From the NCBI GenBank assembly GCA_011523785.1, contig WTFW01000074.1, forward strand, positions 1 to 47,386: DNA of 47,386 nucleotides. The letters are read 5' to 3'. This DNA is from Chloroflexota bacterium (GTDB taxonomy: Bacteria; Chloroflexota; UBA11872). Positions 3,828 to 26,072 of the stretch are shown here, in pieces. The notes beneath the pieces are model-generated. The model did not search any database. It saw only the letters and a list, made by a program, of their open reading frames with translations, and had not been told where the DNA came from. A program made the translations under genes and the position numbers. The number at the start of each line of letters is the position of its first letter. The first letter of the stretch is position 1.

Positions 3828-4949
3828 TCAGTTGCCTGGCGACTCGGTCCCGTTGATCGTGTGCGAGCCGTTCGTCCCAACCTGAAGCACGGGCAGCCGA
3901 TCCCCGGTCACCACGCCGCGAGCGCCGGCAAAGAGGTTCCAGGTCGAACCGTCCTCCTGCCAGATGGCGTCGCATCCACGGCACAGCTTGTAGTCATCCA
4001 GCTTGCCGCGCACGTGCGCCTCGCGAATCGCGCGATACGCCGGGTTGTTCCAGATGTCCAGCAGCGACTCGTTGGCAAGGTCTCCCATGATCTGGTCTTC
4101 GCCGAAGTCCGCGCAGCAGGAGGGGACCTTGCCGTCCCAGTAGATCGCCATGGACTTCCAGAGCCAGTTGCAGGGGTAGTAATTCGGGCCATGCGGACGC
4201 GCGGTGTAGAAGTCGGACGAGTCCATCTGCCCGGCCCAGCCGTGCGCCCAGAACGTGTCCCACTCGTCCACGGGCAATCCGTCGAAGCGCTGCCGGAAGT
4301 GCTCCGGAATCACCGGTGCGGCGCCCTTGGGATAGCTCGAGTCCCAGAGCTGAATCACCTGCATCACGAAGTACGGTTTCGGGCCGGAACGCTGCTTTCG
4401 CGATTCAAGGAGTCGAAGCACGCGCTCAAGTGTGCGGTCGAACTGCGCGCCCTTGCGCATGACTTCGTAGTGTTCGGGTTCGCCCGAGTCAAAGCTGATC
4501 GTCAGCTTGCTCGGCGCCGCGTCCAGCAACTGCTCGATCTTCTCGTCGCGCAGCAGGGTGGCGTTCGTGTTGATGTGGGCGGCAATCCCGGCCCGCTCGC
4601 ACACCTCGATCATCTCGTAGATGTCCTTGTGCATCAGCGACTCGCCGCGGAAGAACAGGTTGGCTTCCCGCACGAACGGCTTTGCCTCGTCGATGATCTT
4701 GCGGAACAGGCCCATGTCCATGAACGGCTTCTGCTTTTTGAGTTCGTCGGCGAGCACACTTTGCGGACACATGGGACAGCGCAGGTTGCAGGCGCTGGTC
4801 GGCTCGATGTGCAGCTTGATCGGCCCATACGGCAACTCGGTCGTGCCGCGCATCCAGTGGTAGGCAAAGCGACTAAGCGACGGCCGGAGGATCGCGCGGT
4901 GCCGCCGGTACTTGACCAGCAGGTCCTTCGCCTGGCTGATCGAATTCAC
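3828..4949 (-). CDS. Radical SAM enzyme with SPASM-type C-terminal domain
   Basis: The start is GTG 4949, which overlaps the upstream small gene's stop (GTGA); a longer frame from 5039 would overlap that gene by 94 nt. The product is 373 residues. Cysteines 54, 58 and 61 form the CX3CX2C site (CNLRCPMC) for the [4Fe-4S] cluster that cleaves S-adenosylmethionine. The C-terminal third holds cysteine-rich SPASM-like segments (YYPCNWLWKSMAIYWDGKV, PSCCADFGEDQ, YKLCRGC) with the usual MGDLANESLLDIWNNP motif. SPASM proteins bind extra Fe-S clusters and modify peptides, sugars or other small substrates. Its place among glycosyltransferases argues for a sugar- or carrier-modifying reaction, but radical SAM genes of this type are often annotated without known substrate. 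The pairing with a Trm112-like protein is notable. Confidence 0.88.
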   Translation of the reverse strand: MNSISQAKDLLVKYRRHRAILRPSLSRFAYHWMRGTTELPYGPIKLHIEPTSACNLRCPMCPQSVLADELKKQKPFMDMGLFRKIIDEAKPFVREANLFFRGESLMHKDIYEMIEVCERAGIAAHINTNATLLRDEKIEQLLDAAPSKLTISFDSGEPEHYEVMRKGAQFDRTLERVLRLLESRKQRSGPKPYFVMQVIQLWDSSYPKGAAPVIPEHFRQRFDGLPVDEWDTFWAHGWAGQMDSSDFYTARPHGPNYYPCNWLWKSMAIYWDGKVPSCCADFGEDQIMGDLANESLLDIWNNPAYRAIREAHVRGKLDDYKLCRGCDAIWQEDGSTWNLFAGARGVVTGDRLPVLQVGTNGSHTINGTESPGN

Positions 4950-5176
4950 GAGCTGGCGGCTTCCTCGCGCCTCGGTGGGATCGCGTCTTCCCACAGCATG
5001 TTGGGAATTCCGTCCTCGACCTTGTAGCGATAGCCGCAAACTGTACAGACGAGAAAGTCGCCCTCGATGCGCAGTACGCCGTCATCGCGCGGATGATCGT
5101 CGTTCACGCAGCGCAGGATCGCCAGGAAGTCGTCTGGAATGAGCGGCGGCGCGGACGTCGCGTCCGAATCAGCCAT
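4946..5176 (-). CDS. Trm112-like small zinc-binding protein
   Basis: This 76-residue protein matches the short Trm112/YcaR (UPF0434) pattern: a hydrophobic leader (LIPDDFLAILRC), a two-cysteine knuckle (FLVCTVCGYRYKV, C44 and C47) and the family-defining end VEDGIPNML. Only three cysteines are present (C23, C44, C47). The usual second residue of the first knuckle is missing, so zinc binding may use Asp or His, or be weakened. In eukaryotes Trm112 activates methyltransferases; bacterial relatives are poorly understood. Its ATG (5176) is 29 nt downstream of the preceding stop, and its end overlaps the radical SAM start by 4 nt, so equal expression and a partner role for that enzyme are plausible but inferred. 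Confidence 0.72.
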   Translation of the reverse strand: MADSDATSAPPLIPDDFLAILRCVNDDHPRDDGVLRIEGDFLVCTVCGYRYKVEDGIPNMLWEDAIPPRREEAASS

Positions 5177-5205: not shown

Positions 5206-7452
5206 CTAGAGCATGAAATGTAGCGTGTCAAAGCTAATCAACAGCGCGGCAAACGCGCCAATCGCAAGAAATCGCGTGAGGCGAACGCCACGCACGGACG
5301 GCCAGATACGGCCGCTCAGGCCGACCCAGGCTCCCAGCGCGGCAAACTGCAGCAGCAACAGCAGGGCGGTCACCCAGATCAGGAATCCCGGATATGCCAG
5401 GAAACTCTCGACCAGTCTCAGCGACCAGAAATCCAACCCCAGACCGTTCTCCGGGCGTACTGGAACTGCGTCGATGCCGAATCGAAGCCAGGGTGTTCGG
5501 CCGAGGGAATCCGCCAGCCAGTCCGTGCGGTCGGGTGCGAGCAGATTGACTGCGTCAGCGCGAAGCAGCCAAGCGTGGGCCAGGAGTGGCGAGAACTGGT
5601 ACGCATAGAGCACCGCCGCGAAGTCGCCCTCCGGCTGAATGGACGACCACGGCTGGTAGTCGGCGCCGCCGTAAACGGCGCCTTTGAGCGGCACGCCGCC
5701 AGCCACCTGCTGCTGAAAGAGATCCAGATAGCTGATGAAGTCCTTGGCAACTCCCATGAATTGCACGCTGGCACTGATGAGCAGGACGACGGCGAGGGCC
5801 GCGCCGGGAAGCCAGGATCGCGCCCGTTCGATCACGCGCTCAAACAGCGGTGCTCCCACGATTACCAGCAGCGGAAGGGTCGGCACGAGGTAACGCGGAC
5901 CCCAGGAGTTTCCTCCGTACCAGACCTGCTTCCGACTGTAGAGCAGGGCATAGGCGACCGGAATCGCGACAAATATGAGCGACCGCCAACCATGGCGCCG
6001 CACGAACCAGGGCAACACGGGCAGCGTCACCAACAAGATCGGGTTGTACCAGAGCACACCCTTGCCCCAGCTCGTTATCAGCCCGCCCAGGCCCAATCCA
6101 AATGGCAGTTCCAGCCAGCCGCGCTGAAGGCCGCCGATCAGCTCATGAACATAGAGGATTTGAAACTCGAACAGCGTGGCCGCAGCCACCAACCCCGGCA
6201 GCAGCACGCCCGCGAACGGGGCAAGGAAAACCAGCGCTGGACGCACGGACGCCCGCAGGGCCCGGCGCCACGAATTCCCAGACTTCGCGAATACGACGAG
6301 ACTCGCCAGCAGCAGTGGCACGGCTATAACGCTGACATACTTCGTCAGGACCGCCGCGAACGCCAGCAATCCGGCGAGCAGCGCATACCGCCGCTGTCGA
6401 GTCGAGTCGAACACCAGTAAGAGCCACACCGAGCCCAGCAAGAGCGTCGTGACGATCGGCTCGGAAAAGTCGAACTTGGCATATGGCCAGGCCATGGTCC
6501 CGATGGCATAGATCAGGGCGCCAACCACGGCCACGCGCTCGCTATATGAAAGCCGACGCAGGATTCGGAAGACCAGCACGACGCCGAGCGCGGTCACTAA
6601 CGCGTTGGCGGCCACCACCCAGATGCGCCGAAAGAACTCACGGTTTTGCCGCTCGGACCAAACGCGGCCAACGCCGGGACCGTCCTGCCAGGTCCCATCA
6701 GGTGTTCGTACGGCAAGACCGTCCACGTAGAAGTTGCCGTCCGGCTGGACGTATGCAATGCGCGCTGAGGCCAGGTCGCGGGGAGAGTCGAATAGCCAGG
6801 TGGCCGCGTAGTAGTACGCCCGCGAATTACCAATGTGACGAGCCACCGGCGGCGGCTGGGCGTGTTTGATCACGGCACGCACGTCGCCTCGGTCATATGC
6901 CCACTCAGCCGTCTCGATTCCGACTCGAATGGGATGCTCGGTACTCCTGCCCGAGGTGTCATGTAGCCGAAGTCGCGCGATTTCAGTGCCTTGCACGAAG
7001 TCGGCGCTGAGTCCGCTGTGGGACACCAGGATCAGCGCGTCGTAGACCCCGGGCGCGATATCAAGATCAAGCTCCCGCTGCACGTCTTTTGCCGGTGTGC
7101 CGCCCAGCGGCGGATAGCTGACGAGCAGCACCTCATGGGCGTCGAGGGGAATCCGGTCCCGCTGCGGAGCCTTCTTGGCCAGCGGCTCCGCGAACGCGAC
7201 GATGGGAGCAAATGCCGTGGGCAGCCCGATGCCCCAGCGAGCGAAATTTCGATTCTGATCGCGAAGATACGCGTGGCCTGGATCGACCATCACGCTCTTG
7301 GCCATCTCAAACGCAAACGTGCCGTCGGCGCTGTAACCGGAGCCGTTGCGGGCAGGTCCCATGCTCAAGGCATACAGCGCAAAGCTGAACAAAAAGAGGA
7401 GCAGGGCCGGGCGCGCCTGTCCCCAGCGCATGAGCCGACCGGTTCGCGTCAT
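5206..7452 (-). CDS. Polytopic GT-C glycosyltransferase-like membrane protein
   Basis: The product has 748 residues and starts at ATG 7452. A first membrane helix (residues 16-32) is followed by SGYSADGTFAFEMAKSV. Its Asp43 sits where GT-C enzymes of the PMT/ArnT type place a catalytic acidic residue in the first extracellular loop. A long soluble insert follows (about residues 70-280) with strand-rich sequence including IRVGIETAEWAYDRGDV and YVQPDGNFYVDGLAV, which reads as an extracytoplasmic beta-sandwich. About ten further hydrophobic segments fill residues 285-560 and 690-748. Such enzymes use polyprenyl-phosphate sugars on the outer face of the membrane. The position between the GT4 gene and the Trm112-like gene puts it in the same glycan pathway. 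Donor and acceptor are unknown, and no residue beyond Asp43 is assigned. Confidence 0.75.
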   Translation of the reverse strand: MTRTGRLMRWGQARPALLLFLFSFALYALSMGPARNGSGYSADGTFAFEMAKSVMVDPGHAYLRDQNRNFARWGIGLPTAFAPIVAFAEPLAKKAPQRDRIPLDAHEVLLVSYPPLGGTPAKDVQRELDLDIAPGVYDALILVSHSGLSADFVQGTEIARLRLHDTSGRSTEHPIRVGIETAEWAYDRGDVRAVIKHAQPPPVARHIGNSRAYYYAATWLFDSPRDLASARIAYVQPDGNFYVDGLAVRTPDGTWQDGPGVGRVWSERQNREFFRRIWVVAANALVTALGVVLVFRILRRLSYSERVAVVGALIYAIGTMAWPYAKFDFSEPIVTTLLLGSVWLLLVFDSTRQRRYALLAGLLAFAAVLTKYVSVIAVPLLLASLVVFAKSGNSWRRALRASVRPALVFLAPFAGVLLPGLVAAATLFEFQILYVHELIGGLQRGWLELPFGLGLGGLITSWGKGVLWYNPILLVTLPVLPWFVRRHGWRSLIFVAIPVAYALLYSRKQVWYGGNSWGPRYLVPTLPLLVIVGAPLFERVIERARSWLPGAALAVVLLISASVQFMGVAKDFISYLDLFQQQVAGGVPLKGAVYGGADYQPWSSIQPEGDFAAVLYAYQFSPLLAHAWLLRADAVNLLAPDRTDWLADSLGRTPWLRFGIDAVPVRPENGLGLDFWSLRLVESFLAYPGFLIWVTALLLLLQFAALGAWVGLSGRIWPSVRGVRLTRFLAIGAFAALLISFDTLHFML

Positions 7453-7476: not shown

Positions 7477-9057
7477 CTAATCGCCAACAAGCTCGTCCAC
7501 CAGTGAATTGAGGCGATCTCGAAACGCGGCAGCGCTGAATCGCTGGCTCGACTGTCGGGCCCGCCCGGCCATCGCGGCTCGTCGTTCAGCGTTTCGCACC
7601 AGATCCCAGGTCCGAGCGCGCAACTCCCCAGTCGTCATCCACAGAAAACCGTCGTGCCCATCGCGCACGACCTCGGGCGGTCCGCCCTGGTTCAGCACGA
7701 CCGGAACCACCTCGTTGGCCATGGCCTCAACCACGGAAATGCCAAAGTGCTCGAACTTGATCGGATCGCGCGCAGAACGTTCCCCGAATCCGGCGGCATG
7801 CCAGTAGATCTGCGCCTCACCATAGAATCGCTGCAAGTCGTTGAACGGAGCATCGACTGCGAACTCGATCGGGTAGCCCTGCGCTCGCTGGCGCAGATCA
7901 TCCGTGTAGGCCACGTCAACGTCCCGTTGACTCTGGTGGCCGACCAGCCGAAGGGTCCAGCCGGACAGTCCCTCGCGGCACATGCGCTTGAACTGTTCGA
8001 CCATCACGCCGTGCTTCTTTTCGTGCGAGCCGCGAAAAAACCGGCCAACGCTGAGGATCGTCTTGGACTTTGGCCGCGGTTTGGCCCAGCTGGTGTCGAC
8101 GGGCGGATAGAGCAGCGGCCCACTACGCTGCCAGTATGTCTCCATCCACCTACGGCTGAACTCCGAAATAGGGCAAATCCGATCGTATGTGTCGAGATTG
8201 GCCAGCGAGTACTCCTCCGGCAACCACTCAAGACGCCAGCCCAGGTCCGGTAGCACCCGACGAAAGATCAGCTCGTAGAGCAGGTGCCGGGGATGGCGGA
8301 CTCGAACATCGGTTACGGCCAGCCCAATCTCGCGATTGTCCGCCGCCGTCACTTCACGCGCGGGATTGATCGTGGCAGACGTCAGCGTAAGTTCGGCCGT
8401 GCCATCCGCCACAAAGCGGCGGTCCAGATCGATTCGCCAAGTTTCGAATTCCCCGGGACGCGGCGCAAACGAGTGCTCGGCAATGACCTGTCCGCCGGCC
8501 AGGCACCGCACCGGGAGGCTGTGCTCAGGCCTGAAGTTGCCGGCCACGACGTCAATCGGCACGGGTCCCCGGCCGCGCGGCACCCGCAGCCGGACCAGGG
8601 CCAGATCGGTCATGTACCGAAACCACCCACGCCCGAGTTCCTGCACGTCGTAGAAACCGTCGCTCCATTCGGGCATCAGGAGCTGCCGCTTCAGGAAACG
8701 GCCAACGCTCTGCCGCAGTCGCTGGTGCCAGGCGCGGTCAACCGGCGACGGGAACAACACCAGCATCATGCTGTAGCGCGCCGCGGATGGCTGGTTCGTC
8801 ATGAACGACGCGTTGACGAACAGGTCGTATTCGCGAGTGACCCTGGCAAAGCGGTTGGGGGGCAGCGCCGGAATCACTCGAATGCCGATCTGATCAAGAT
8901 CGATGTGCAGGGACTCCGCCAGGTCGTCCCGGTCGATCGGACGGTGCGTGATGAGCTCGGTTTCGAAGCGGTCCGCCAACACGCGGGCGGCCATCACGGC
9001 GTGACGCTCGCCACCACCCTTCTCATGCAGCCACCGGTTGTAGACCGCCGCTTTCAA
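7477..9057 (-). CDS. GT4 glycosyltransferase with an inserted beta-sandwich module
   Basis: The product has 526 residues, about 130 more than a usual GT4. The start is TTG 9057, overlapping the upstream stop (TTGA); the next methionine is residue 22, inside the conserved N-terminus MKAAVYNRWLHEKGGGERHA, so TTG is preferred. GT4 motifs are clear: KTILSVGRFFRGSHEKKHG, LRLVGHQS and an exact EX7E in EHFGISVVEAMANEVVPV. Residues 131-253 interrupt the acceptor domain. They begin WSDGFYDVQE, continue WFRYMTDLALVRLRVPRG and end NREIGLAVTDVRV. The same order of motifs occurs at the end of the neighbouring Wzt and, rearranged, in the neighbouring GT2. The overall layout resembles ALG11-like mannosyltransferases, but that is a loose likeness. 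The gene ends 24 nt before the GT-C gene. Confidence 0.85.
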   Translation of the reverse strand: MKAAVYNRWLHEKGGGERHAVMAARVLADRFETELITHRPIDRDDLAESLHIDLDQIGIRVIPALPPNRFARVTREYDLFVNASFMTNQPSAARYSMMLVLFPSPVDRAWHQRLRQSVGRFLKRQLLMPEWSDGFYDVQELGRGWFRYMTDLALVRLRVPRGRGPVPIDVVAGNFRPEHSLPVRCLAGGQVIAEHSFAPRPGEFETWRIDLDRRFVADGTAELTLTSATINPAREVTAADNREIGLAVTDVRVRHPRHLLYELIFRRVLPDLGWRLEWLPEEYSLANLDTYDRICPISEFSRRWMETYWQRSGPLLYPPVDTSWAKPRPKSKTILSVGRFFRGSHEKKHGVMVEQFKRMCREGLSGWTLRLVGHQSQRDVDVAYTDDLRQRAQGYPIEFAVDAPFNDLQRFYGEAQIYWHAAGFGERSARDPIKFEHFGISVVEAMANEVVPVVLNQGGPPEVVRDGHDGFLWMTTGELRARTWDLVRNAERRAAMAGRARQSSQRFSAAAFRDRLNSLVDELVGD

Positions 9058-10415
9058 GAGGATTCAAGGAAGGGGCGCAACTCGCGCCCGTCCAGCGGCG
9101 CCAGCCGGGCTTCCACGTTGCGCAACCTCCACGTTTGCGTCCCAGCTACCAAGGCGTCGCCAAGCGCGCGGAGTCGCGCCGCCACGCGCCGGGCCGCCTC
9201 CACGTCGCGCAGCGCCAGGGCGTTCCGTGCGTCACCGGCTGTGAACTTGAGCGCCGCCGCCGCGTGCTGGGCCACCCACGACCGCGGCGCGTTCTTCCCG
9301 AGCATTCGCAGCTTGCCGAACTCAACGCTGCGGATGAATCCCGGCGACCACTCGCGACTGAACGCGGCATGTTCATGGCGCACCACGGAGTCAGGCTCGT
9401 ACCAGAATCGCCAGCCACGGCGTTGGGCCCGCCAGGCCAGATCGGCATCCTCGTAGTACATGAAAATGCCGTCGTCCAGGTAGTTCAGCGACTCAAGCAT
9501 GGACCGCCGGTACAGCACGGCCGCGCCCTTCACCGCAAACACCTCACTCGCCTGACCGTACGTTGAATCGTCCCATGCCGACCAGGGCACGCCAGCCAGC
9601 AGGTGCGTGCCGCGATCGCGCATCGAGCCGTCCTGGAGCGGTGCGATGCCCGCACACTCAATTGCCGGCCGCGCCAGTCGCGCCACCAAGTCGGCGTTGA
9701 CGTCAAGCTGAAACGTCGTGCGCGCACTCGGTACCTGCGTGTCGACAAGGGGCTGGTCGCCGGCGTAGACACTGAGCGCGACCGGAGCCCGTCCATCTCC
9801 CGCCGCCAGATCCACGTGCAGCGTCGTTGCTTCGCTACGCACCGGTACGGCAAGTTCGGCGTGGCTCTCGGTCCATCGAAACGGGTGGCCGTACTCGTTC
9901 AGTTCAACGCCGTGCATGCCACCGGTCACGTCGGCGGCGCCTGCCCGTGTCTCGGCACCGTAGAACCGGACTCCGAGCTGCCTCGTGTCTGGCGCTGGCG
10001 CCGCTATCGTTGGGACTTTCAGTCGCAGCGGGATTCGGTCGAACTGATGCAGCAGCTTTGCTCCGACCCCACCGGCCAGCGGGTCACCAGCCAGGCGCGA
10101 GACCAAAGGGTGCAGCCAGTCCGGCTCGACCTCGGTGTCTGGATTGAGCAGCCCCACAAAGGGCTCGGATGCCCGACGCAGCGCCTTGTTGTTTCCCCGT
10201 GAGAATCCCAGGTTGGCTCCATTCTCGATGAGTTCGATTCGTGGAAACGCTTGTTCAACGCTGGCGGGCGAGCCGTCAGTCGAGGCGTTGTCAACCACGG
10301 TTACCCGCAAGTCGGGATAGCGCGTGGCGAGCAACCGCTCGAGGCAGCGTTCAATCCGTCCGGCGCCGTTGTAGTTGAGAACGACGATACGAACGGGCGG
10401 ATGCGCTGTGGTCAT
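9054..10415 (-). CDS. GT2 glycosyltransferase (rhamnosyltransferase-like) with inserted beta-sandwich
   Basis: This 453-residue protein has an ATG at 10415 that overlaps the Wzt stop (ATGA). The GT-A core is split. The nucleotide-sugar half is residues 8-125 (IVVLNYNGAGRIERCL, VVDNASTDGS and LLNPDTEVEPDW, whose D93 lies in the metal-binding NPD-type motif). The acceptor half is residues 290-350 (VFAVKGAAVLYRRSM, IFMYYEDADLAWRAQRRGW, with an ED pair as catalytic-base region). These are features of the WbbL/rhamnosyltransferase branch. Residues about 128-285 are inserted between the halves and contain TRQLGVRFYGAE, then MHGVELNEYG with PFRWTESHAELAVPV, and later DGSMRDRGTHLL. The inserted motifs match the module in the flanking genes but in permuted order. 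The 100-residue helical tail is of unknown use. Confidence 0.86.
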   Translation of the reverse strand: MTTAHPPVRIVVLNYNGAGRIERCLERLLATRYPDLRVTVVDNASTDGSPASVEQAFPRIELIENGANLGFSRGNNKALRRASEPFVGLLNPDTEVEPDWLHPLVSRLAGDPLAGGVGAKLLHQFDRIPLRLKVPTIAAPAPDTRQLGVRFYGAETRAGAADVTGGMHGVELNEYGHPFRWTESHAELAVPVRSEATTLHVDLAAGDGRAPVALSVYAGDQPLVDTQVPSARTTFQLDVNADLVARLARPAIECAGIAPLQDGSMRDRGTHLLAGVPWSAWDDSTYGQASEVFAVKGAAVLYRRSMLESLNYLDDGIFMYYEDADLAWRAQRRGWRFWYEPDSVVRHEHAAFSREWSPGFIRSVEFGKLRMLGKNAPRSWVAQHAAAALKFTAGDARNALALRDVEAARRVAARLRALGDALVAGTQTWRLRNVEARLAPLDGRELRPFLESS

Positions 10416-12121
10416 TCCACCCGGATGGAGCTCACGGCGATTCCGAGCGGGCGGGTGTCCGAGTCCAGGCCGACCGTGGCGGGCACCAGCGCGTCGTCAA
10501 CCTCGATGACCAGCTCGTGCGTCGTCGGCCTCGTTACCGGATCCAGGGGCACCACCACGTCCTCAAAATCCATGCCGTGAAGCTGGAACGTTGCAATGTG
10601 TAGCCCGTTCAGACGCACCCGGCCCTGGGCTTGTGCCCGTCCATGGAGCGGTCGGCAGGCCGATAGGATCAACGACCCCTGACCCACGTCCTGCCGGAGG
10701 TAGGCCACGGCCCGCTCGCTGGTCCACCGCACCCGTGGCGGCCAGTTTTCGGCAGGGAACCAGCCTTCGCCCAGCCACTCAGCTTCCCGTGCACCCATGG
10801 CCAGTTCTTCCGGGGGCGGCGTCCAAAACGGGCCGGCGGCTTCGGTCAGCATATCCGGCTGTGCAATGGGAGCCGATGTTGACTGCAACTCACCGTTGGG
10901 CGGAGCCATCGTCACGCGCCACTGCGACGGAAGGACCGCGACGCCACGCTGGGAGGTTGCGGCCTTGCCCACGAATAGCGTGATCGCGTCGGGCCACATG
11001 TGGTACGGATGAAGCCGATCCGCTTCCGGCCAGACGCCCAGCGACAGCTGGTAGCTCCCCGGCCCCAGCGGTAACGGGCCGAGCAAGCACTCAACGCGCG
11101 CACGCCCCGGCTGCACGGCCGTCGGTCCCAGCGATGCGGCCGTTGAGGTCTCGTGCAATAGCAGCCCGTCGCTGCGACGGACAGCACAGCCAACAATCAC
11201 GTCCTCAAGGTAGGATTCGGACTCCAACTCCAACTGCAGCCGTACAACGTCACCCGGCAGGAAGGTGTAACTCTCCGCGCCGGTCGATTCGTCAGCGGCC
11301 GTCGCCGCCCGGATACGGAGCTCTTCGCCGCCGAGGTCGGGCGTCGACTCCTTCCGCTCGGCGGTGGCGGAGGGTACGCCGCCGCCGCGCATGTGCTGCA
11401 GGTATTGCTGGATCACGTCCCGCGGGTCGCCCAATGCTTGAATCGTGCCGCGGTCGATCCAGAGCACCCGGTCGCAGAACCGTCGCACCTGGATCGGATC
11501 GTGTGACACAAAGACCAACGTGCGCCCACGGGCCTTGATGTCGGCCAGCGCCTCGTAACACTTGGACGTAAAGCGTGCGTCCCCGACCGCCAGCACTTCG
11601 TCGATCAGCAGGATGTCTGGATCAACATTGATGGCGATGGAGAATCCGAGCCGCATAAACATGCCGGACGAGTAGTGGCGAACCGGCGTGTCGATAAAGC
11701 GTTCCAACTCGGCGAAGGCGACGATGCGGTCGTAGAGCTGCCGCATCTCGTTACGCTCGATACCGAGGAATGAACCGTTCAGGAAAATGTTCTCGCGACC
11801 CGTCAGGTCCGGGTGCATCCCCGCGCCCAGTTCAAGCAGGCCGAAGACCTTGCCGCTCGTCAGGACTTCACCCGCCGTTGCTTCGATCGTGCGCGCCAAC
11901 AGCTTCAGAATCGTGGTCTTGCCAGACCCGTTGGGGCCGATGATTCCAAGGGTTTCGCCTTCCGCGACCTGCAGGTCAACGCCATCGAGCGCCCAGAATT
12001 CTTCGTGCTCGATCCGTCGTCGGCCAAGCAACGCCAACGCCATGCCCTGCCACGTGCGTGCGGCCTCGTGGCGGATCCTGAAACGCTTGCGGACCCCGCG
12101 AAGTTCAATGGCGGCTGGCAT
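10412..12121 (-). CDS. wzt: Polysaccharide ABC exporter ATPase with two C-terminal beta-sandwiches
   Basis: The product has 569 residues and starts at ATG 12121. The ATPase occupies residues 1-245: Walker A GPNGSGKTT (62-70), signature YSSGM (150-154), Walker B LLIDE (171-175) and H-loop His207. The characteristic FWALDGVDL and LLELGAGMHPDLTGREN stretches belong to the O-antigen/teichoic acid exporter class. Residues about 265-405 look like a Wzt_C-type domain, which in known systems binds the end of the polymer. A further domain (about 448-569) starts GEGWFPAENW, continues RVRWTSERAVAYLRQ and ends RPLGIAVSSIRVE. It is the module also seen in the two downstream glycosyltransferases. Wzt works with the Wzm permease encoded at 12798-13640, though a plus-strand gene separates them. 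The gene overlaps the GT2 gene by 4 nt. Confidence 0.92.
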   Translation of the reverse strand: MPAAIELRGVRKRFRIRHEAARTWQGMALALLGRRRIEHEEFWALDGVDLQVAEGETLGIIGPNGSGKTTILKLLARTIEATAGEVLTSGKVFGLLELGAGMHPDLTGRENIFLNGSFLGIERNEMRQLYDRIVAFAELERFIDTPVRHYSSGMFMRLGFSIAINVDPDILLIDEVLAVGDARFTSKCYEALADIKARGRTLVFVSHDPIQVRRFCDRVLWIDRGTIQALGDPRDVIQQYLQHMRGGGVPSATAERKESTPDLGGEELRIRAATAADESTGAESYTFLPGDVVRLQLELESESYLEDVIVGCAVRRSDGLLLHETSTAASLGPTAVQPGRARVECLLGPLPLGPGSYQLSLGVWPEADRLHPYHMWPDAITLFVGKAATSQRGVAVLPSQWRVTMAPPNGELQSTSAPIAQPDMLTEAAGPFWTPPPEELAMGAREAEWLGEGWFPAENWPPRVRWTSERAVAYLRQDVGQGSLILSACRPLHGRAQAQGRVRLNGLHIATFQLHGMDFEDVVVPLDPVTRPTTHELVIEVDDALVPATVGLDSDTRPLGIAVSSIRVE

Positions 12122-12211: not shown

Positions 12212-12673
12212 ATGAGGCTGAGTTTCGAAACGAAGGAGATCGGTGCGCAGCCCATGCTGGCCATCCGAACGACGAGCCCGATGGACAAGCTCGAAGAGCT
12301 GCTGGGGTCGTTGTTTGGCGAGGTCTACGGGTACATCCAGGAGCGCGGTGAACAGCCCGCTGGCATGCCGTTTTCCCGCTACCACTCGATGGACGGAACC
12401 ACAGTCGACCTTGAGTGCGGGATGCCCGTGGCTTCGCCAATGGAAGGGAAGGACCGCGTCCAGGCTGGGGAACTGCCCGCCGGAAGCGTGGCGACCGTGA
12501 CCCATTTGGGCCCGTACGACGGTCTTCCCCAGACGTGGTCCGCGCTGACGGAGTGGATGGCTTCGGAGGGTCACAATCCGGCGGGTGCGCCCTGGGAGGT
12601 CTACGTCACCGATCCCGGCGCCGAGCCCGATCAGTCGAAATGGCGCACCGAGATCTACTTCCCGGTGCGCTGA
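12212..12673 (+). CDS. Stand-alone GyrI-like (AraC effector-binding fold) protein
   Basis: The product has 153 residues and starts at ATG 12212, with purine-rich GAGGGG about 9 nt upstream. It consists only of the GyrI-like/SOUL-type small-molecule-binding fold. Diagnostic pieces are LAIRTTSPMDKLEELLG near the start, AGSVATVTHLGPYDGLPQTW in the second half (the HxGPY element) and the ending PWEVYVTDPG with TEIYFPVR. There is no HTH domain. In related proteins this fold binds hydrophobic ligands, inhibits gyrase (SbmC) or hydrolyses cyclic compounds; which applies here is not visible. It is the only plus-strand gene inside the polysaccharide locus and splits wzm from wzt, so it is probably an insertion with independent expression. 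I see no clear promoter. Confidence 0.8.
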   Translation: MRLSFETKEIGAQPMLAIRTTSPMDKLEELLGSLFGEVYGYIQERGEQPAGMPFSRYHSMDGTTVDLECGMPVASPMEGKDRVQAGELPAGSVATVTHLGPYDGLPQTWSALTEWMASEGHNPAGAPWEVYVTDPGAEPDQSKWRTEIYFPVR

Positions 12674-12797: not shown

Positions 12798-13640
12798 CTA
12801 GAGCTCTTCCGCGAAGCGGCTGGCCAGACGCCGGAACATCCACCACCCAACGCTCAGGAGCGCGAGGGCCGTCACGATCGTCACTAACGTGTGCCGAATC
12901 GGCGGGAATCCCCACATGAAGGCGTAGCGGTAGTCCGTGACCAGCGTCGCCATCGGGTTGAGCATGAAGACCCAGCGGTGAATATCCAGACCAAGAACGG
13001 TCTGATTCGGAACGATGGACATCGCGTAGAAGATTGGCGTCAGAAAAAACCAGGCCAGCAACCCCACCTCAACAATGTGCTCGGTGTCGCGGAAAAAGAC
13101 GTTCACTGTCGCGAGCACGAGTCCCAGCCCCAGAACGAATGTCAAGTGCAGCAGCATGACGAGCGGCACGGCCAGCATGGTCCTGGTGACCCCAACGCCA
13201 AACGGCAGCGCGACCAGCCAGAAGACCACGTACGCCAGCACAAAGTTAATGAAGCTGGCCAGCACGGCGCTGAGCGGCAGGAGTTCGCGCGGAAAGTAGA
13301 CCTTCTTGATCAGCAAGGCGTTCGACGTGACGCTCCGCATCGCCGTCGTCAGCGCGTGCTGCGTGAACAGCCAGGGAACCAGCGCGCTCAGCAGGAAGAA
13401 CGGATATCGCTCGATGGGGTCCGACTTGGCCAGGACCTGGAAGACGAGCGTAAAGACGCCCATCATCAACAACGGGTTGAGCAAGGCCCAGGCAAACCCA
13501 AGCACCGACCCGCGATACCGAACCTTCAAGTCGCGCACGACCAGGTTGCGCAGCAGGTCGGCGTACTCGTGCAGTTCGCGCGCGGCGGCTAGAACCTGTC
13601 GGGCCGGGGCGAGTCGCCCCTTCGCAGCAATGGCGGCCAT
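12798..13640 (-). CDS. wzm: Polysaccharide ABC-2 type exporter permease
   Basis: The preferred start is ATG 13640, which has a strong GAGGGGG Shine-Dalgarno stretch about 8 nt upstream; a TTG at 13667 would place that stretch inside the gene. The product is then 280 residues. The N-terminal cytoplasmic helix (YADLLRNLVVRDLKVRYRGS) and the following VLGFAWALLNPLLMMGVFT are the standard beginning of O-antigen/teichoic acid ABC-2 permeases. About six membrane helices follow, with the conserved WFFLTPIFYAMSIVP in the second half. It forms the membrane channel that, with Wzt, moves lipid-linked glycan across the inner membrane. It appears to be the first gene of the minus-strand locus. A 676-nt stretch with an opposite-strand gene lies between it and wzt, so the two may need separate promoters. 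Confidence 0.9.
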   Translation of the reverse strand: MAAIAAKGRLAPARQVLAAARELHEYADLLRNLVVRDLKVRYRGSVLGFAWALLNPLLMMGVFTLVFQVLAKSDPIERYPFFLLSALVPWLFTQHALTTAMRSVTSNALLIKKVYFPRELLPLSAVLASFINFVLAYVVFWLVALPFGVGVTRTMLAVPLVMLLHLTFVLGLGLVLATVNVFFRDTEHIVEVGLLAWFFLTPIFYAMSIVPNQTVLGLDIHRWVFMLNPMATLVTDYRYAFMWGFPPIRHTLVTIVTALALLSVGWWMFRRLASRFAEEL

Positions 13641-13670
13641 AAAAAAGCCCCCTCGACACAGGGGCAAGGG

Positions 13671-13757: not shown

Positions 13758-14381
13758 ATGGAAATCACGTGGATCGGGGGCAGTTGCTTTCGATTCCGCG
13801 GACGCGGCGGCGCGATCGTCACCGACCCGCAGACATCCGGCCGAACTCGCCGGTCTACATTCCCCAAGGCTGATCTGGTCGCCATCACCAACCCTGATGC
13901 CCCTCCCGGCGTTGAACGCCTCGTGCTCCCGAACCAGCAGAGCCGTGATCCATACGTGGCCACCGGCCCCGGCGAATACGACGTATCCGGCGTCTACCTG
14001 CATGGGATCGCGGGCCCCCGCGCGCCCGGCGGCCGCCCCGGACACACCATCTACGCCCTGGATATCGACCGCGTCACGGTATCGCTGATTCCCAGCCTTT
14101 CGGGCGATCTAACCAATGAGATGCTTGAAGAACTCGGAACGGCGCAGGTCTTGGTCGTCAATGCCGACGACGGCGTAGAGCGCGTCGTAAGCCTGGTGAA
14201 CCGCGTAGAACCCAACATTGTGGTTCCCTTTGGCCAGTCGTCGAACGGTCGAAGTTCATGGCTCGATGCCGCCAGGGCGCTGAGTGAAGCTGAGCCGACG
14301 CCCGAAACGTCCGTCAATGTCTCGCTGTCAAACCTCCCTGAGCCTGTCGCCACCCGCGTGTTGGGCCAGCGTGCCGCTTGA
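13758..14381 (+). CDS. Degenerate metallo-beta-lactamase-fold protein, metal site lost
   Basis: Starting at ATG 13758 (MEITWIGGSCFRFRG) gives 207 residues; an upstream start at 13713 adds only unstructured sequence. The fold resembles UlaG-like/UPF0173 Zn-dependent hydrolases, where the N-terminus normally reads WxGHSCF. Here that histidine is Gly8. The metal motif HxHxDH, expected after the strand ADLVAIT (39-45), is replaced by NPDAPP. The downstream GDLG-type aspartate region is altered too (SLSGDLTNEML). Non-catalytic family elements survive: TGPGEYDVSGVYLHG (69-83), HTIYALDID and NIVVPFGQ. The frame is intact, so the protein is probably made but is not a standard hydrolase. A structural or binding role is inferred. 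It is followed 70 nt later by pyrG. Confidence 0.68.
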   Translation: MEITWIGGSCFRFRGRGGAIVTDPQTSGRTRRSTFPKADLVAITNPDAPPGVERLVLPNQQSRDPYVATGPGEYDVSGVYLHGIAGPRAPGGRPGHTIYALDIDRVTVSLIPSLSGDLTNEMLEELGTAQVLVVNADDGVERVVSLVNRVEPNIVVPFGQSSNGRSSWLDAARALSEAEPTPETSVNVSLSNLPEPVATRVLGQRAA

Positions 14382-14451
14382 TGACCTGCCGTCCCGAGCG
14401 CAGCCTGAGCCACCCCAAGACGCGCATTCACGCCTCGTGACTGGCGGTACG

Positions 14452-16101
14452 GTGCGCAAGTTCATCTTCGTAACCGGCGGCGTGCTCAGCGGCGTTGGCA
14501 AAGGCGTCAGTGTCGCCAGCATCGGTCGACTGCTGAAGAGCCGGGCGCTCAAAGTCTCCGTCATGAAGCTGGACCCCTATATCAACGTGGATCCCGGCAC
14601 CATGAGCCCCCTCCAGCACGGCGAAGTCTTCGTAACCGTGGACGGCGCCGAGACCGACCTGGACCTTGGTCACTATGAGCGCTTCATCGATGAGAATCTC
14701 CGGGCGGTTAGCAACCTCACCACCGGCGGCGTTTATGACCGGGTGATCAGCCGTGAGCGGCGCGGCGATTTTCTTGGTGGAACCATCCAGGTCATTCCGC
14801 ACATCACCGACGAAATCAAGGCGCGCATTCACGACGTAGGCGATACCCATGACGCCGATGTGGTGATTGTTGAGGTCGGCGGAACCGTCGGCGACATCGA
14901 GAACATCCCCTTTGTCGAGGCGCTCCGCCAGATGCGCCGCGAGGTTGGCAGCGACAACGTGCTGTATGTGCACGTCACCCTGGTGCCCCGCATCGGCGCC
15001 ACCGGCGAACTCAAGACCAAGCCCACCCAGCACAGCGTCACGCAACTTCGCGGCCTCGGCATCCATCCGGATGTCGTGATTTGCCGTTCCGACTCCCCGC
15101 TGCCGCTTGATCTGCGCGAGAAGATCGCCTTGTTCGCCGACATTGATGCGCGCGCGGTGATCTCCAACGTGGACGTGGACACCATTTACGAAGTTCCCCT
15201 GGCCCTTGAGGCCGCCGGTCTTGGAAGCTTCATCGCCGAGCGCCTGCAGCTGCCCGATCGTCATCCCGATCTCGACGAGTGGCGGGGCATCGTCGGTGCG
15301 CTGCGCGAACCTCGACCGCAGCTCGAAGTCGCCATTGTCGGCAAGTATGTTTCGCTGCCGGACTCGTATCTCAGCGTGATCGAGGCGGTACGACACTCAG
15401 GCATTGCGCTGGGCATTGATCCGGTGATTCGCTGGGTCGACTCAGAGGACCTGGAAGACCGCGACCCCGCTGACCTGCTGGACGGCACGGCTGCCGTCAT
15501 CGTTCCCGGCGGGTTCGGTCCGCGCGGGATTGAGGGGAAAATCCAGGCCGCCCACTACGCCAGGGTGCATAAGGTCCCCTATCTGGGCCTCTGCCTGGGC
15601 ATGCAGATCGCCGTCATCGAGTTCGCGCGCAAGGTTCTCGGCACCGACGATTGCGACAGCATCGAGTTCAATCCCGACACCAGGCACCCAGTGATCCACC
15701 CGATGCCCGAGTACTACGATGTCTCCGAAATGGGTGGATCGATGCGCCTTGGCCTCTGGCCCTGCGAACTCGTGGCGGGCACCCTGGCGCGCGCCGCGTA
15801 CGGCACGCCCTCGGTGCGGGAGCGCCACCGACATCGCATGGAATTCAACAACAGGTATCGCCGGCTGTTGCGTGCCGAAGGCATGACCTTTAGCGGGCTG
15901 TCGCCGGACAGCAAATTGGTTGAGATCATTGAATTCGAGGGGCATCCCTGGTTCGTGGGCTGCCAGTTCCACCCTGAGTTCGCCTCGCGGCCCAACCGCC
16001 CGCACCCGCTCTTTACCGGCTTGCTGCGCGCCGCTATCCGTCACGCCGAAGGCCGCCACGCAGTTCCCCTCCTGGAATCCAGACCCGAAACCGTCACCTA
16101 A
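14452..16101 (+). CDS. pyrG: CTP synthase
   Basis: The enzyme converts UTP, ATP and glutamine to CTP. GTG 14452 is chosen as start because it gives VRKFIFVTGGVLSGVGKG, matching the usual N-terminus; the frame is open upstream to 14284, and GTG 14437 is an alternative. The product is 549 residues, normal for the family. The synthetase domain holds the ATP loop SGVGKGV, LDPYINVDPGTMSPLQHGEV and GGTVGDIE. The glutamine amidotransferase half (from about residue 290) has the nucleophile loop YLGLCLGMQIAVIEFAR and the His-Glu pair in CQFHPEF. It lies 70 nt downstream of the degenerate MBL-fold gene and 70 nt upstream of purA, so these probably share a transcript. All key residues I can check are present. 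Confidence 0.97.
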   Translation: MRKFIFVTGGVLSGVGKGVSVASIGRLLKSRALKVSVMKLDPYINVDPGTMSPLQHGEVFVTVDGAETDLDLGHYERFIDENLRAVSNLTTGGVYDRVISRERRGDFLGGTIQVIPHITDEIKARIHDVGDTHDADVVIVEVGGTVGDIENIPFVEALRQMRREVGSDNVLYVHVTLVPRIGATGELKTKPTQHSVTQLRGLGIHPDVVICRSDSPLPLDLREKIALFADIDARAVISNVDVDTIYEVPLALEAAGLGSFIAERLQLPDRHPDLDEWRGIVGALREPRPQLEVAIVGKYVSLPDSYLSVIEAVRHSGIALGIDPVIRWVDSEDLEDRDPADLLDGTAAVIVPGGFGPRGIEGKIQAAHYARVHKVPYLGLCLGMQIAVIEFARKVLGTDDCDSIEFNPDTRHPVIHPMPEYYDVSEMGGSMRLGLWPCELVAGTLARAAYGTPSVRERHRHRMEFNNRYRRLLRAEGMTFSGLSPDSKLVEIIEFEGHPWFVGCQFHPEFASRPNRPHPLFTGLLRAAIRHAEGRHAVPLLESRPETVT

Positions 16102-16171
16102 CGGCCCCAAACCCAGAAATGCGGAGTCCTATGCGATCCCACGCTGTCGCGCCGCCTAGCAGGTGGCTGTC

Positions 16172-17467
16172 ATGAGCACCGTCGCCGTCCTTGGCGCCCA
16201 GTGGGGCGACGAAGGTAAGGGCAAGGTTGTCGACCGCTTCGCCCAGCACGCCGAAATGGTCATCCGCTTCCAGGGGGGCAACAACGCCGGCCACACGGTC
16301 ATCAACGATCAGGGAACGTTTAAGCTGCACCTGGCGCCGTCCGGGATATTCAACCCAGAGGTCACGAATATCCTTGGACCCGGCACCGTCATCAATCCGG
16401 CGGCCTTGTTGGAGGAGCTCGAAGAACTCCGAACTCAAGCCGATCTCTCCTTCGAGAGATTCTGGATCGCTGAGCGCGCCCACGCGGTGATGCCCTATCA
16501 CGTGGCGCTGGATGCCGCCGAGGAGGCCCAGCGCGGCGATCTGGCCCAGGGCACCACCCTCCGCGGCATCGGCCCGACCTACGCCGACAAGGCGGCCCGT
16601 TCCGGCGTTCGCATGGGCGACCTGCTCGATGCCGACTACCTGCAGGCCTGGCTGCCGGCAATCCTTGAGCCCAAGAACAGGCTCCTGGAAAACGGCTACG
16701 GCGTGGCGCCGCAGGATCCGCAGGCGCTGATCGATCAGGCCCTCGAGTGGGGTGACGCCCTCGCCCCACACATCGTGGACACCCTGCCGATCGTGAGCGA
16801 GGCCTTGGCCAACGACCGTCGCATCCTGCTCGAAGGCCAGCTCGGGGTCATGCGCGACCTCGACTGGGGCCACTACCCCTACGTCACGTCTTCAAGCCCA
16901 TCGGCTGGCGGCGCCTGCGTGGGCGCGGGCATCCCGCCGCGCGAACTCGACCAGGTGTGGGGCGTCGCCAAGGCGTTTAGCTCGTCGGTGGGTGAAGGAC
17001 CCTTCCCAACCGAGCTTTTCGACGAGACCGCCGAACACCTGCGGGAAGTCGCCGGCGGCGAGTACGGCGCCTCCACCGGCCGGCCCCGACGTTGCGGCTG
17101 GTTTGACGCCGTTGCCGTGCGCACCGCGGCCGCTCTCAGCGGTATCGACTGCCTGGCGCTGACCAAGGTCGACGCTCTCGACGGTCTGGAGCGCATCAAG
17201 GTGGCCGTGGCCTATGAGCTAGACGGCAAGCGCACCGAACTGGCGCCCGATACTCGTAAATTCGACCGAGCCCGCCCGATCTACGAAGACTTCCCGGGCT
17301 GGATGACCTCCACCGAGGGCGTCAGCGAGCTCGACGACCTGCCGCCTAACGCCCGTAGCTACATCGACGCCATCAGCCAGATCACCGGCATTCCGCTCGG
17401 CCTGATCGGCACCGGCCGCCACCGCGACGCCGCCATCATCCTGAAGGACCCGTTCGCCACGACTTAG
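16172..17467 (+). CDS. purA: Adenylosuccinate synthetase, variant active site
   Basis: The enzyme joins IMP and aspartate with GTP to make adenylosuccinate, the first committed step to AMP. ATG 16172 follows an AGGTGG ribosome site at a good distance; GTG 16163 is less likely. The product is 431 residues. GTP-loop and catalytic elements are present: WGDEGKGK (11-18, Asp13), NNAGHTV (His41), TTLRGIGPTYADKAAR and GRPRRCGWFD. The segment normally EGAQGTLLDIDHGTYP is here EGQLGVMRDLDWGHYP (221-236). The glutamine that contacts the IMP base is moved or lost, SSN becomes SSS, and KAYxTRVG becomes KAFSSSVG. I recall similar wording in other Chloroflexota PurA proteins, so this is probably a lineage subtype that still works, not a decayed gene. 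Confidence 0.93.
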   Translation: MSTVAVLGAQWGDEGKGKVVDRFAQHAEMVIRFQGGNNAGHTVINDQGTFKLHLAPSGIFNPEVTNILGPGTVINPAALLEELEELRTQADLSFERFWIAERAHAVMPYHVALDAAEEAQRGDLAQGTTLRGIGPTYADKAARSGVRMGDLLDADYLQAWLPAILEPKNRLLENGYGVAPQDPQALIDQALEWGDALAPHIVDTLPIVSEALANDRRILLEGQLGVMRDLDWGHYPYVTSSSPSAGGACVGAGIPPRELDQVWGVAKAFSSSVGEGPFPTELFDETAEHLREVAGGEYGASTGRPRRCGWFDAVAVRTAAALSGIDCLALTKVDALDGLERIKVAVAYELDGKRTELAPDTRKFDRARPIYEDFPGWMTSTEGVSELDDLPPNARSYIDAISQITGIPLGLIGTGRHRDAAIILKDPFATT

Positions 17468-17525
17468 GCTAACCCTGGCGTTCGGTACGCTGGCGGCCAC
17501 CAACTCGCCTGGCGGAGACGAACCT

Positions 17526-17996
17526 ATGGCCGCGGTATCCGAGGGCGTGCAAGCGCCTGACTTTCAACTGTCGTCCACGGAAGACGAGCCATTCTCGCTG
17601 CTCGCTCGCCGAGGTCGCAGCAACCTGGTTCTCTTGTTCCTCGACAACGCATCCGGTGGCACTGACACGGAAATCGCATCTTCGTTTCGCGATGCCAGCG
17701 ACATCTTTCGGTCGGTACGGAGCACGGTCATTGGGATCGCCAAGGCTGAACTTGACGAGCTCAAGGCCTTTCAGTCGGCGAATTCGCTGGCCTTTGAGCT
17801 CCTGAGCGACGACGGAGCCGTCGCCGCCGACTATGGCGTGCGCGTGCGGCAAGGATTCGGGCCATTCTCACGCGAGCGCTTTCGCCGCAGCACGTTCCTG
17901 GTGGATCGCACCGGCGTTGTCCGCCGCATTTTCCGCGACGTGGATGCCGGGGAACACGTCAACGAAGTCCTCGCCGCACTCGACGAGGGTCTCTAG
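17526..17996 (+). CDS. Cysteine-free peroxiredoxin-like (AhpC/TSA fold) protein
   Basis: The product has 156 residues and starts at ATG 17526. It follows the peroxiredoxin plan: GVQAPDFQLSSTED (7-20), a beta strand NLVLLFLD (33-40), the helix ending in FRD (54-56), then VIGIAKAELDELKAF, a GVRVRQGFGPF loop, RRSTFLVDRTGVVRRIF (120-136) and a C-terminal helix. Where the family has the peroxidatic cysteine (PxxxTPxC or GCT) the sequence is DNASGGTDTE, and there is no cysteine anywhere in the protein. It therefore cannot carry out thiol peroxidase chemistry. The conserved arginine before STFLVD is kept. It may be a binding or chaperone-like protein with the same fold. It is 58 nt downstream of purA and ends 58 nt before the pyr -10 element. 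Confidence 0.78.
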   Translation: MAAVSEGVQAPDFQLSSTEDEPFSLLARRGRSNLVLLFLDNASGGTDTEIASSFRDASDIFRSVRSTVIGIAKAELDELKAFQSANSLAFELLSDDGAVAADYGVRVRQGFGPFSRERFRRSTFLVDRTGVVRRIFRDVDAGEHVNEVLAALDEGL

Positions 17997-18053
17997 GCCA
18001 CGCTCGCCTCTCGGTCGCGGCGTCAAACTCAAGCCCTGGCGGCAGCCATTCGC

Positions 18054-18059
18054 TATAAT
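18054..18059 (+). promoter_or_regulatory. -10 element of the pyr operon
   Basis: The sequence is a perfect TATAAT. Transcription would start near 18066, exactly at the foot of the PyrR-binding hairpin, which fits an attenuated leader. No good -35 box is seen 16-18 nt upstream. Confidence 0.55.
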
Positions 18060-18064
18060 CTCGC

Positions 18065-18156
18065 CAGCCTTTAATCCAGTCCAGCGAGGCGGAAAGGCTG
18101 CATTCTGCGGCGTGCCGCGTCTGGCGGACTAAGGGCCTTCCGGGCCCTTTCTTTTT
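18065..18156 (+). promoter_or_regulatory. PyrR-responsive attenuator leader of the pyr operon
   Basis: Three mutually exclusive RNA pairings can be read. The anti-antiterminator is a perfect 8-bp lower stem, CAGCCTTT (18065-18072) with AAAGGCTG (18093-18100). It encloses an upper hairpin with the loop AGTCCAGCGAGGC, very close to the known PyrR-binding consensus (UCCAGNGAGGY). The terminator lies at 18131-18156. The antiterminator pairs GGAAAGGC (18091-18098, one bulged A) with GCCTTCC (18135-18141), which uses the 3' arm of the PyrR hairpin and the 5' arm of the terminator. By the established Bacillus mechanism, UMP-bound PyrR stabilises the first hairpin, frees the terminator and stops transcription before pyrR. 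The gene that follows is pyrR itself, which supports the reading. Confidence 0.85.
18131..18156 (+). terminator. Intrinsic terminator inside the pyr leader
   Basis: A 7-bp perfect stem, AAGGGCC (18131-18137) with GGCCCTT (18143-18149), has the five-base loop TTCCG and is followed by a T-rich run (TTTCTTTTT, 18148-18156). It lies 25 nt before the pyrR start codon and is the conditional terminator of the attenuator. Confidence 0.85.
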
Positions 18157-18180
18157 GCCCGGTACGCCATGGGAGGCAAC

Positions 18181-19675: not shown

Positions 19676-20281
19676 TGAGTCCCTATTCCGCCGCGCCGCC
19701 GCGCGAGATCCTGGCCGGCGTCTATCAGTGGACCGTGGCCTGGCATCGCTACACCCTGGAGTCCTACCTCGTCGAGACTGACGACGGCGTGATCGCCATC
19801 GATCCCCAGGACCTGTCGCCCACCGCCCTCCAGGGCGTCCTCTCCCGTGTCCGTCACGTCATTCTCACCAACCATTTCCACGAGCGGGCCGCCGCGATCT
19901 GGCGGCATCGGTTCGACGCCCCTGTCTGGGCGCCCGACGGTGATGTCGGCGATCTGGAGACGCTAACCCCGGATCACGTCTACTCGGCCGAGACCGAGTT
20001 GCCCGGCGGTCTGCAAGCCATTGGCCTGGGTGGGATCAGTACCGGGGAACATGCGCTGTTCACCCCCGAGAACCGCGGCGTCCTCTTCGTCGGCGACGCG
20101 CTGGGCACCACCAGCTACTGGACACACGGCGAAGGCGAGCTGGGCGCGCATCCGCGCATGCGTCCGCCGACGCCGCTACAGAAGCTGCTTGACCTGAACT
20201 TCACCAGCATCGCCGTCGGCCACGGCGAGCCGATCCTGGACCAGGCCAAGGTCGCCCTGGCCGCCTACCTGGAGTCAGCCC

Positions 20282-20292: not shown

Positions 20293-21629
<1,337 letters not shown>

Positions 21630-21640
<11 letters not shown>

Positions 21641-22829: not shown

Positions 22830-22856
22830 CTCGATCCAACCTGCTCGCTTTGCCCC

Positions 22857-26068
<3,212 letters not shown>

Positions 26069-26072
<4 letters not shown>

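Follow-up and report, generated by a model that had tools for sequence, protein, structure and literature searches.

Carbohydrate-binding modules (CBMs) of families CBM6, CBM35, CBM36 and CBM60 are best known from glycoside hydrolases, BcsB is a separate subunit on the outer side of the membrane, and polypeptide GalNAc-transferases carry a C-terminal beta-trefoil lectin domain. In polysaccharide export dependent on ATP-binding cassette (ABC) transporters, the known exporter checkpoint is, as described in two reports, recognition of the capped chain end by the Wzt_C domain of the exporter ATPase Wzt (PMC9445017, PMC11231755). The former describes a tryptophan of Aquifex aeolicus Wzt as stacking on the O-methyl cap (PMC9445017), and the latter presents the Klebsiella O7 terminator ORF6 as a methyltransferase-kinase with a predicted immunoglobulin (Ig)-like CBM (PMC11231755). 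Here we describe a predicted jelly-roll module that occurs three times in adjacent genes of a Chloroflexota glycan locus, once in Wzt and once in each of two glycosyltransferases (GT2 and GT4). The window is the whole 47,386-nucleotide stretch analyzed (GenBank assembly GCA_011523785.1, contig WTFW01000074.1, positions 1 to 47,386; contig C146 of the 3.3-Mb genome G000), and all genes of its glycan run lie on the minus strand. A preliminary description had placed a shared module in these three genes and suggested that, through it, one glycan may be recognized by the exporter and the enzymes alike. The features concerned are as follows.

10412–12121, minus strand: wzt (open reading frame [ORF] list)
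11594–11989, minus strand: nucleotide-binding domain of Wzt, residues 45–176 (PF00005, ABC_tran, E 1e-18)
10967–11326, minus strand: canonical polymer-end-binding domain Wzt_C, residues 266–385, distinct from the module (PF14524, E 1.7e-11)
10415–10780, minus strand: module copy 1, an extra C-terminal Wzt domain in canonical strand order, residues 448–569 (hidden Markov model [HMM] of GT4 inserts, E 8.8e-8; hhalign to the GT4 insert, probability 97; AlphaFold2 [AF2]; Foldseek)
9054–10415, minus strand: GT2 glycosyltransferase of GT-A fold, holding a permuted insert (PF00535, E 1.5e-22; AF2)
9942–10046, minus strand: first piece of module copy 2, GT2 residues ~124–158, corresponding to the canonical module end and holding DTRQLG (hhalign against the tandem GT4 insert; best rotation k=35)
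9663–9941, minus strand: second piece of module copy 2, GT2 residues ~159–251, corresponding to the canonical start and middle (GMHGVELN..FRWT; hhalign, rotation and strand pattern)
7477–9057, minus strand: GT4 glycosyltransferase, with a Glycos_transf_1 region at residues 329–502 (PF00534, E 4.1e-16)
8299–8667, minus strand: module copy 3, an insert in canonical order in the N-terminal half of GT4, residues 131–253 (genome profile search, E 3.2e-30, with a profile that contains GT4 rows of relatives)

Three homologous copies of one module, one of them circularly permuted

The three genes lie where the preliminary description had put them, and the segments are homologous copies of one module. 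Profile-profile comparison with hhalign joined the GT4 insert to the Wzt domain (probability 97.1–97.4, E 7e-11 to 1e-11, 108–109 columns) and to the GT2 insert (96.6–96.8, E 6e-10 to 3e-10), whereas an unrelated beta-sandwich, the Wzt_C domain of the same protein, reached a probability of at most 1.9 against each of the three segments. Direct comparison of Wzt with GT2 was weak (18–40; 73–77 with other column settings), and the relation of these two copies is therefore linked through GT4. An HMM built from GT4 inserts alone matched the Wzt module of the window at E 8.8e-8 and the GT2 insert at E 9.4e-6; neither this HMM nor that of the fourth search round matched any of 8785 reversed or as many shuffled ORFs at E ≤ 10. 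GT4 orthologues from relatives were matched in 35 of 41 genomes, some of them partly and that of G018 in the catalytic region only, and the boundaries of the GT4 insert were set from two insert-less homologues (L130, L139). Identical sequences were dropped from the HMM, conservation and rotation sets, and the conservation table omits loci L151–L161 and rows with more than 60 gaps. Residues common to the hosts are a G, an aromatic residue, an E, R-W-T, an A, a P and D-x-R-x-L-G, close to the motif set first reported; the GT4 opening motif was misplaced relative to Wzt in some MAFFT and hhalign runs and correctly placed in the shared-residue alignment.

The common order that had been reported for these motifs did not hold for GT2, in which the D-x-R-x-L-G "ending" (residues 143–148) stands ahead of the G-x-x-x-x-E opening (G-M-H-G-V-E, 166–171); the GT2 copy is circularly permuted. 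When the GT2 insert was compared with a tandemly duplicated GT4 profile, the alignment crossed the junction and the score rose from 63.5 to 86.5. The junction was likewise crossed against tandem Wzt, with the probability rising from 40 to 89, and by GT4 against tandem GT2. Rotation improved the score of 52 of 58 GT2 inserts against the GT4-only HMM (3 equal, 3 worse; mean 22.8 to 35.6), as compared to 0 of 96 GT4 and 1 of 30 Wzt controls; the window GT2 scored best when cut near residue 159. Against the Wzt HMM scores were low (mean 2.6 to 5.1), with 42 of 58 GT2 inserts better and 10 equal; the controls improved in 5 of 96 (GT4, 12 equal) and 0 of 30 (Wzt) cases. Strand assignments in AF2 models of Wzt residues 430–569 and of GT2 after rotation, made from separate alignments, agreed at 90 of 107 columns, a level reached by none of 127 circular shifts (mean 0.50, maximum 0.79). 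Two results argue against permutation, namely that the native order still aligned 75 columns with 66 in strand agreement, and that Wzt compared with tandem GT2 did not cross the junction (probability 9). The insert lies between the N-x-D motif region of GT2 and a native loop also present in insert-less GT2s. Its bounds, given earlier as 128–285, are corrected to ~124–251: residues 252–285 were rejected as part of the module, since the profile matches in this part are to native GT2 sequence ("AG..L.DG..RDRG") that is present in insert-less GT2s as well. The end of the HMM matches this native stretch, so the GT2 row of the conservation table is unreliable over its last ~30 columns.

The extra domain of Wzt was distinguished from the canonical one. 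Wzt residues 35–404 align to Aquifex aeolicus Wzt (PDB 8dku) at E 1.2e-69; in this alignment, read by hand, W376 of Wzt_C stands opposite the cap-stacking tryptophan (with a one-residue numbering offset), and the two histidines discussed for the Aquifex protein correspond to W364 and R369. The polymer-end-binding function that had been invoked for residues 448–569 thus belongs to residues 266–385: PF14524 was matched only there, the module scored at most 1.9 against Wzt_C in hhalign, and PF14524 was absent among the Pfam families matched by 44 cut-out module copies. Wzt_C and the module are alike in being beta-sandwiches joined to the same exporter ATPase, and Wzt_C belongs to a class known for glycan contact (PMC9445017). 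They differ in that the window Wzt has PF14524 as well, the module being a second domain with no detectable relation to it.

As judged on the Wzt copy, the module is predicted to be a jelly-roll beta-sandwich of the CBM6/35/36 class. The AF2 model of Wzt residues 430–569 had a predicted local distance difference test score (pLDDT) of 92.7 and a predicted TM-score (pTM) of 0.87, and Foldseek matched it to 51 PDB chains at E ≤ 1e-3, the best being CBM6/35/36-type jelly rolls (E 2e-5 to 1e-3). Among the 50 of 51 matches listed were 22 named CBMs (6, 35, 36, 51 and BT0996-C), 12 BcsB or cellulose synthase chains, 14 glycan-active enzymes and 2 copies of a sugar-binding EclA domain. The full GT2 model (pLDDT 94.5, pTM 0.91) matched GT-A enzymes, GalNAc-transferases and GlfT2. 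A jelly-roll fold is supported for the Wzt copy, and the strand pattern of GT2 after rotation agrees with it; the likeness to CBMs is confined to the level of fold class.

By sequence, none of the known CBM families was matched significantly in Pfam, NCBIfam or the PDB. Pfam gave no match at E ≤ 1 within Wzt 448–569, the GT2 insert or the GT4 insert. The 44 cut-out copies (from Wzt, methyltransferases, GT4 and other hosts, GT2 inserts not included) yielded two weak CBM60 matches, the better at E 0.0057, and one weak Ig match, with no Pfam family for the window Wzt module. NCBIfam returned three families for module copies, all far under cut-off; its scan of the whole Wzt is represented by 25 of 202 families. 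Profile A4, which holds no GT4 or GT2 inserts, had no match in PDB sequences at E ≤ 1. The GT4 protein alone gave no PDB sequence match, and the 19 sequences found with profile A1 were matched in the catalytic half. None of the matches listed from a plasmid collection had 80% cover. No description of a module of this sort was found among the open-access papers listed, searched mostly at the level of abstract openings.

Comparison with described systems sets the module apart in each case. CBM6, CBM35, CBM36 and CBM60 share its fold class and, in 2 of 44 copies, a weak CBM60 match; they differ in lacking a significant sequence match, and the module sits on proteins of glycan assembly and export. 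BcsB (e.g., 5eiy_B) is likewise a jelly roll tied to a polysaccharide synthase, at 13–21% identity, but the present module is part of soluble enzymes and an ATPase, by insertion or fusion, rather than forming its own subunit. GalNAc-transferases, among the top fold matches of GT2, are GT-A enzymes with their own glycan-binding domain, which is a C-terminal beta-trefoil in place of a permuted jelly-roll insert. Klebsiella O7 ORF6 is reminiscent of the methyltransferases reported below, being a methyltransferase of an ABC-dependent glycan system with a predicted CBM (PMC11231755); that CBM is Ig-like, whereas here one family occurs on methyltransferase, exporter and both glycosyltransferases. 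CBM-like domains on glycan enzymes are of an already known kind, and what is new is an unnamed CBM-like family, its unusual host range and the permuted inserted form.

Distribution and history of the module

When species genomes were scanned for the GT4 profile, at least 515 relatives were confirmed, and 79 loci were retained. Inserts were counted by length at the same place, and recognition by HMM was counted separately. An insert of at least 90 residues was present in 80 of 82 related GT4 ORFs; the final module HMM recognized 71 of these 80 and 41 of 48 GT2 inserts, and the A4 HMM recognized 37 and 11, respectively. The GT2-GT4 pair is conserved in several phyla: 57 neighboring or fused pairs comprised 45 with both inserts by length, 10 with the GT4 insert only, 2 with neither and 0 with the GT2 insert only, while 23 loci gave no pair, some owing to contig ends. 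Both inserts were recognized by HMM in 35 of the 45 two-insert pairs, which derive from Chloroflexota (23), Actinomycetota (14), four further phyla (one each) and unassigned records (4). A metagenome-assembled record titled Bifidobacterium breve (L147) also has the pair, a title that may be a misassignment. GT2 and GT4 occupy one frame of 973–1014 residues in L089 and L122, as also in L047 and L048, with the insert in the GT4 part and a GT2 without one. Wzt was more restricted, as 22 of 37 Wzt ORFs in these loci bear the module, all among the 26 from Chloroflexota and none among the 11 others.

The idea that the module is confined to the window's locus was rejected by genome surveys and by relatives' loci. 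Across 121 Chloroflexota genomes, a Wzt-type profile matched in 28 (E ≤ 1e-4) and a broader profile in 33 (E ≤ 1e-5). The highest number for a single genome is 28 (G060); G060, G092 and G121 have 24–28 matches each, for the most part within long open frames, which marks a large expansion within a single Chloroflexota family (f16). The same survey detected Wzt_C in 62 of the 121 genomes, and 12 of 88 Wzt_C rows were also module-bearing ORFs, with coordinates matched by eye.

In six loci (L082–L086 and L101), the protein next to GT4 bears a C-terminal module. Three such proteins, scanned as L042, L061 and L041 from matching relatives' loci, are methyltransferases by Pfam, as is that of L162, which has the same length as the L084 protein; those of L083 and L086 were not among the proteins scanned. 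The genome of the window has no counterpart, a search with one of these proteins having matched there only the Wzt module and, partially, two methyltransferases. Pfam was applied to 19 further carriers (L166 twice), of which 12 had a non-repeat domain over cut-off, nine concerned with glycan assembly, export, ligation or acylation and three being methyltransferases. They are Wzt (L163), methyltransferases (L162, L164 and L172), PMT_2 (L169, L173 and one L102 protein), Acyl_transf_3 (L171), GT87 (L174), a Wzy_C O-antigen ligase (the other L102 protein), GT2 (L084) and Mannosyl_trans2 (L141). The remaining seven had TPR only (L165 and L167), a sub-cut-off PMT match (L176) or no domain (L166, L175, L177 and L178); all seven contain 4–8 hydrophobic segments, and the locus end truncates several of them. 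By these Pfam domains, the nameable hosts are glycan machinery, an acyltransferase or methyltransferases. Together with the neighboring genes, this agrees with the earlier placement of the module in glycan machinery. The Wzy_C O-antigen-ligase-like protein (L102, 17015–18961) has its module at the C terminus, in a locus that also encodes a module-bearing PMT and a GT4 with insert.

Host copies largely form their own lineages. In a tree of 91 copies sampled evenly across hosts, with rotated GT2 pieces included (136 columns; 30 open forks of 88), one branch (100/96) set the 14 Wzt copies apart, seven of nine methyltransferase copies stood beside Wzt on a branch that is not firm (96/71), GT2 copies and five odd GT4s were apart from the rest (98/95), and GT4 and membrane copies formed several groups. 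Copies from the same locus hardly resemble each other more than copies from different loci do, the difference being at most about one percentage point. With the comparison restricted to the same loci, identity within and between loci was 0.216 and 0.206 for Wzt-GT4 (27 loci; 19 of 2000 shuffles as high), 0.188 and 0.180 for GT2-GT4 (57 loci; 6 of 2000) and 0.196 and 0.197 for Wzt-GT2 (24 loci; 1258 of 2000); for Wzt-methyltransferase (6 loci), 241 of 2000 shuffles were as high. These statistics are uncorrected for kinship or composition, and pairs with 60 or fewer shared columns were dropped; in an unrestricted comparison, within-locus identity was higher by 0.01–0.03 for all five host pairs. 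The small excess may stem from shared ancestry or composition.

Other genes of the window

Pfam placed an ABC2 membrane subunit, the nucleotide-binding domain and Wzt_C in one locus, together a Wzm-Wzt ABC-dependent O-antigen or capsule exporter. wzt and GT2, and GT2 and GT4, each overlap by 4 bases, an operon-like arrangement as expected, and three further GT4-type enzymes lie in the same minus-strand run. Other genes of the run are as follows.

12798–13667, minus strand: Wzm, membrane subunit of the exporter (PF01061, E 8.1e-13)
5206–7452, minus strand: PMT-like membrane transferase (Pfam)
3828–5039, minus strand: radical SAM protein with a SPASM domain, within the glycan gene run

The exporter genes are split by a gene for a GyrI-like small-molecule-binding protein (12212–12673, plus strand) between wzm and wzt. 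In the PMT-like transferase, a large region (residues ~100–265) precedes the PMT match; the module HMM did not match this protein at E ≤ 0.1, and the region is thus something else. Genes of pyrimidine and purine synthesis adjoin the glycan locus (14284–26072, plus strand), encoding CTP synthase, adenylosuccinate synthetase, a carbamoyltransferase, an amidohydrolase/dihydroorotase-like protein and the carbamoyl-phosphate synthase large chain. The genome of the window also has a second GT4 paralogue (L032, 5114–6637, contig C167) of 34% identity, with a shorter and much diverged insert.

Possible roles of the module

The presence of a CBM-like fold in two adjacent transferases, a methyltransferase and the exporter is best explained by the holding of a glycan chain, and we consider it somewhat probable that the module is a putative glycan-binding (CBM-like) domain that holds the chain at several assembly steps. 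Such a domain would bind growing or finished polysaccharide and keep it close to every active site and to the exporter, thereby raising the local acceptor concentration or processivity. The N-terminal half of GT-B enzymes holds the acceptor, and the GT4 insert precedes the Glycos_transf_1 region. Wzt would touch the glycan twice, at the chain end through Wzt_C and along the chain body through the module; as the capped-end checkpoint belongs to Wzt_C, the module is more likely a second contact of this kind. The copies have probably diverged to fit their respective steps, and a single shared epitope is not implied. We infer binding, specificity and hand-over between proteins. A wider version, in which one chain-holding family serves a whole assembly line (GT2-GT4, methyltransferase, exporter, membrane transferases and O-antigen ligase) and the chain is handed on across both membrane sides, appears doubtful; the module is attached to its hosts as a C-terminal fusion, as a loop insert or, in GT2, as a circularly permuted insert.

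Several observations weigh against a chain-holding role. Other jelly-roll domains mediate protein interactions or have a structural role, and the residues common to the hosts may be structural. Query-normalized Foldseek TM-scores of the Wzt module were 0.41–0.59, which makes the CBM likeness one of fold class and not of family. Nine of the 80 GT4 inserts, one from Anaerolineales and the rest from candidate-phylum or unassigned records, were unrecognized by the final module HMM. Two GT4s (L130 and L139), 42–44% identical to the window GT4 by tblastn, lack the insert, and seven GT2s without one adjoin or are fused to an insert-bearing GT4 in GT2-then-GT4 order, indicating that the module is not essential to the chemistry.

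Alternative roles consistent with a jelly roll were considered against these data. As a docking module, it would mediate contacts between proteins, homotypic or through a common scaffold, in one complex of GT2, GT4, methyltransferase and exporter, with no glycan binding. Carriers encoded by adjacent, overlapping genes, GT2-GT4 fusions (L089 and L122) suggesting that the enzymes act together, and the slight within-locus identity excess of Wzt-GT4 and GT2-GT4 are consistent with docking. However, the module is also found on multi-pass membrane glycosyltransferases, a ligase and an acyltransferase of other lineages, at up to 28 matches per genome, and the copies on membrane carriers probably face outside the cytoplasm, away from cytosolic partners; docking is judged unlikely. 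A spacer or stability domain of old origin, giving the acceptor groove its shape or the fold its stability and having neither ligand nor partner of its own, would account for insert-less homologues and for a GT4 insert that has become very divergent (mean within-family identity 0.218) while keeping a small motif set, as expected of a structural signature. Such a spacer is hard to reconcile with separate attachment at the chain ends of Wzt, methyltransferases and membrane enzymes, or with named CBMs making up 22 among the 50 of 51 fold matches listed, and is similarly improbable.

The proposal of the preliminary description, that exporter and enzymes read one epitope through the same site and that this recognition couples chain building to export, found hardly any support and is regarded as quite improbable. 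Fold class and shared residues are indeed alike in the hosts, Wzt and most methyltransferase copies are nearest kin, and a small within-locus excess was seen for Wzt-GT4 and GT2-GT4. That excess is about one percentage point, uncorrected, absent for Wzt-GT2 and unclear for Wzt-methyltransferase. Moreover, host copies stand largely in separate lineages, the module is not private to the locus, and 15 of the 37 Wzt ORFs beside such GT4s lack it, including all 11 not assigned to Chloroflexota.

The chain-holding reading bears on how ABC-dependent pathways coordinate extension, capping and export, which is known mainly from a few models with a single carbohydrate-binding domain on Wzt. Here, an unnamed module occurs at several steps of a pathway; it is found in Chloroflexota, Actinomycetota and a number of candidate phyla, and two enzymes hold it inside the catalytic protein. 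For annotators, it represents a domain without a match in Pfam and NCBIfam. In its GT2 copy, domain insertion goes together with circular permutation, a clear example from nature.

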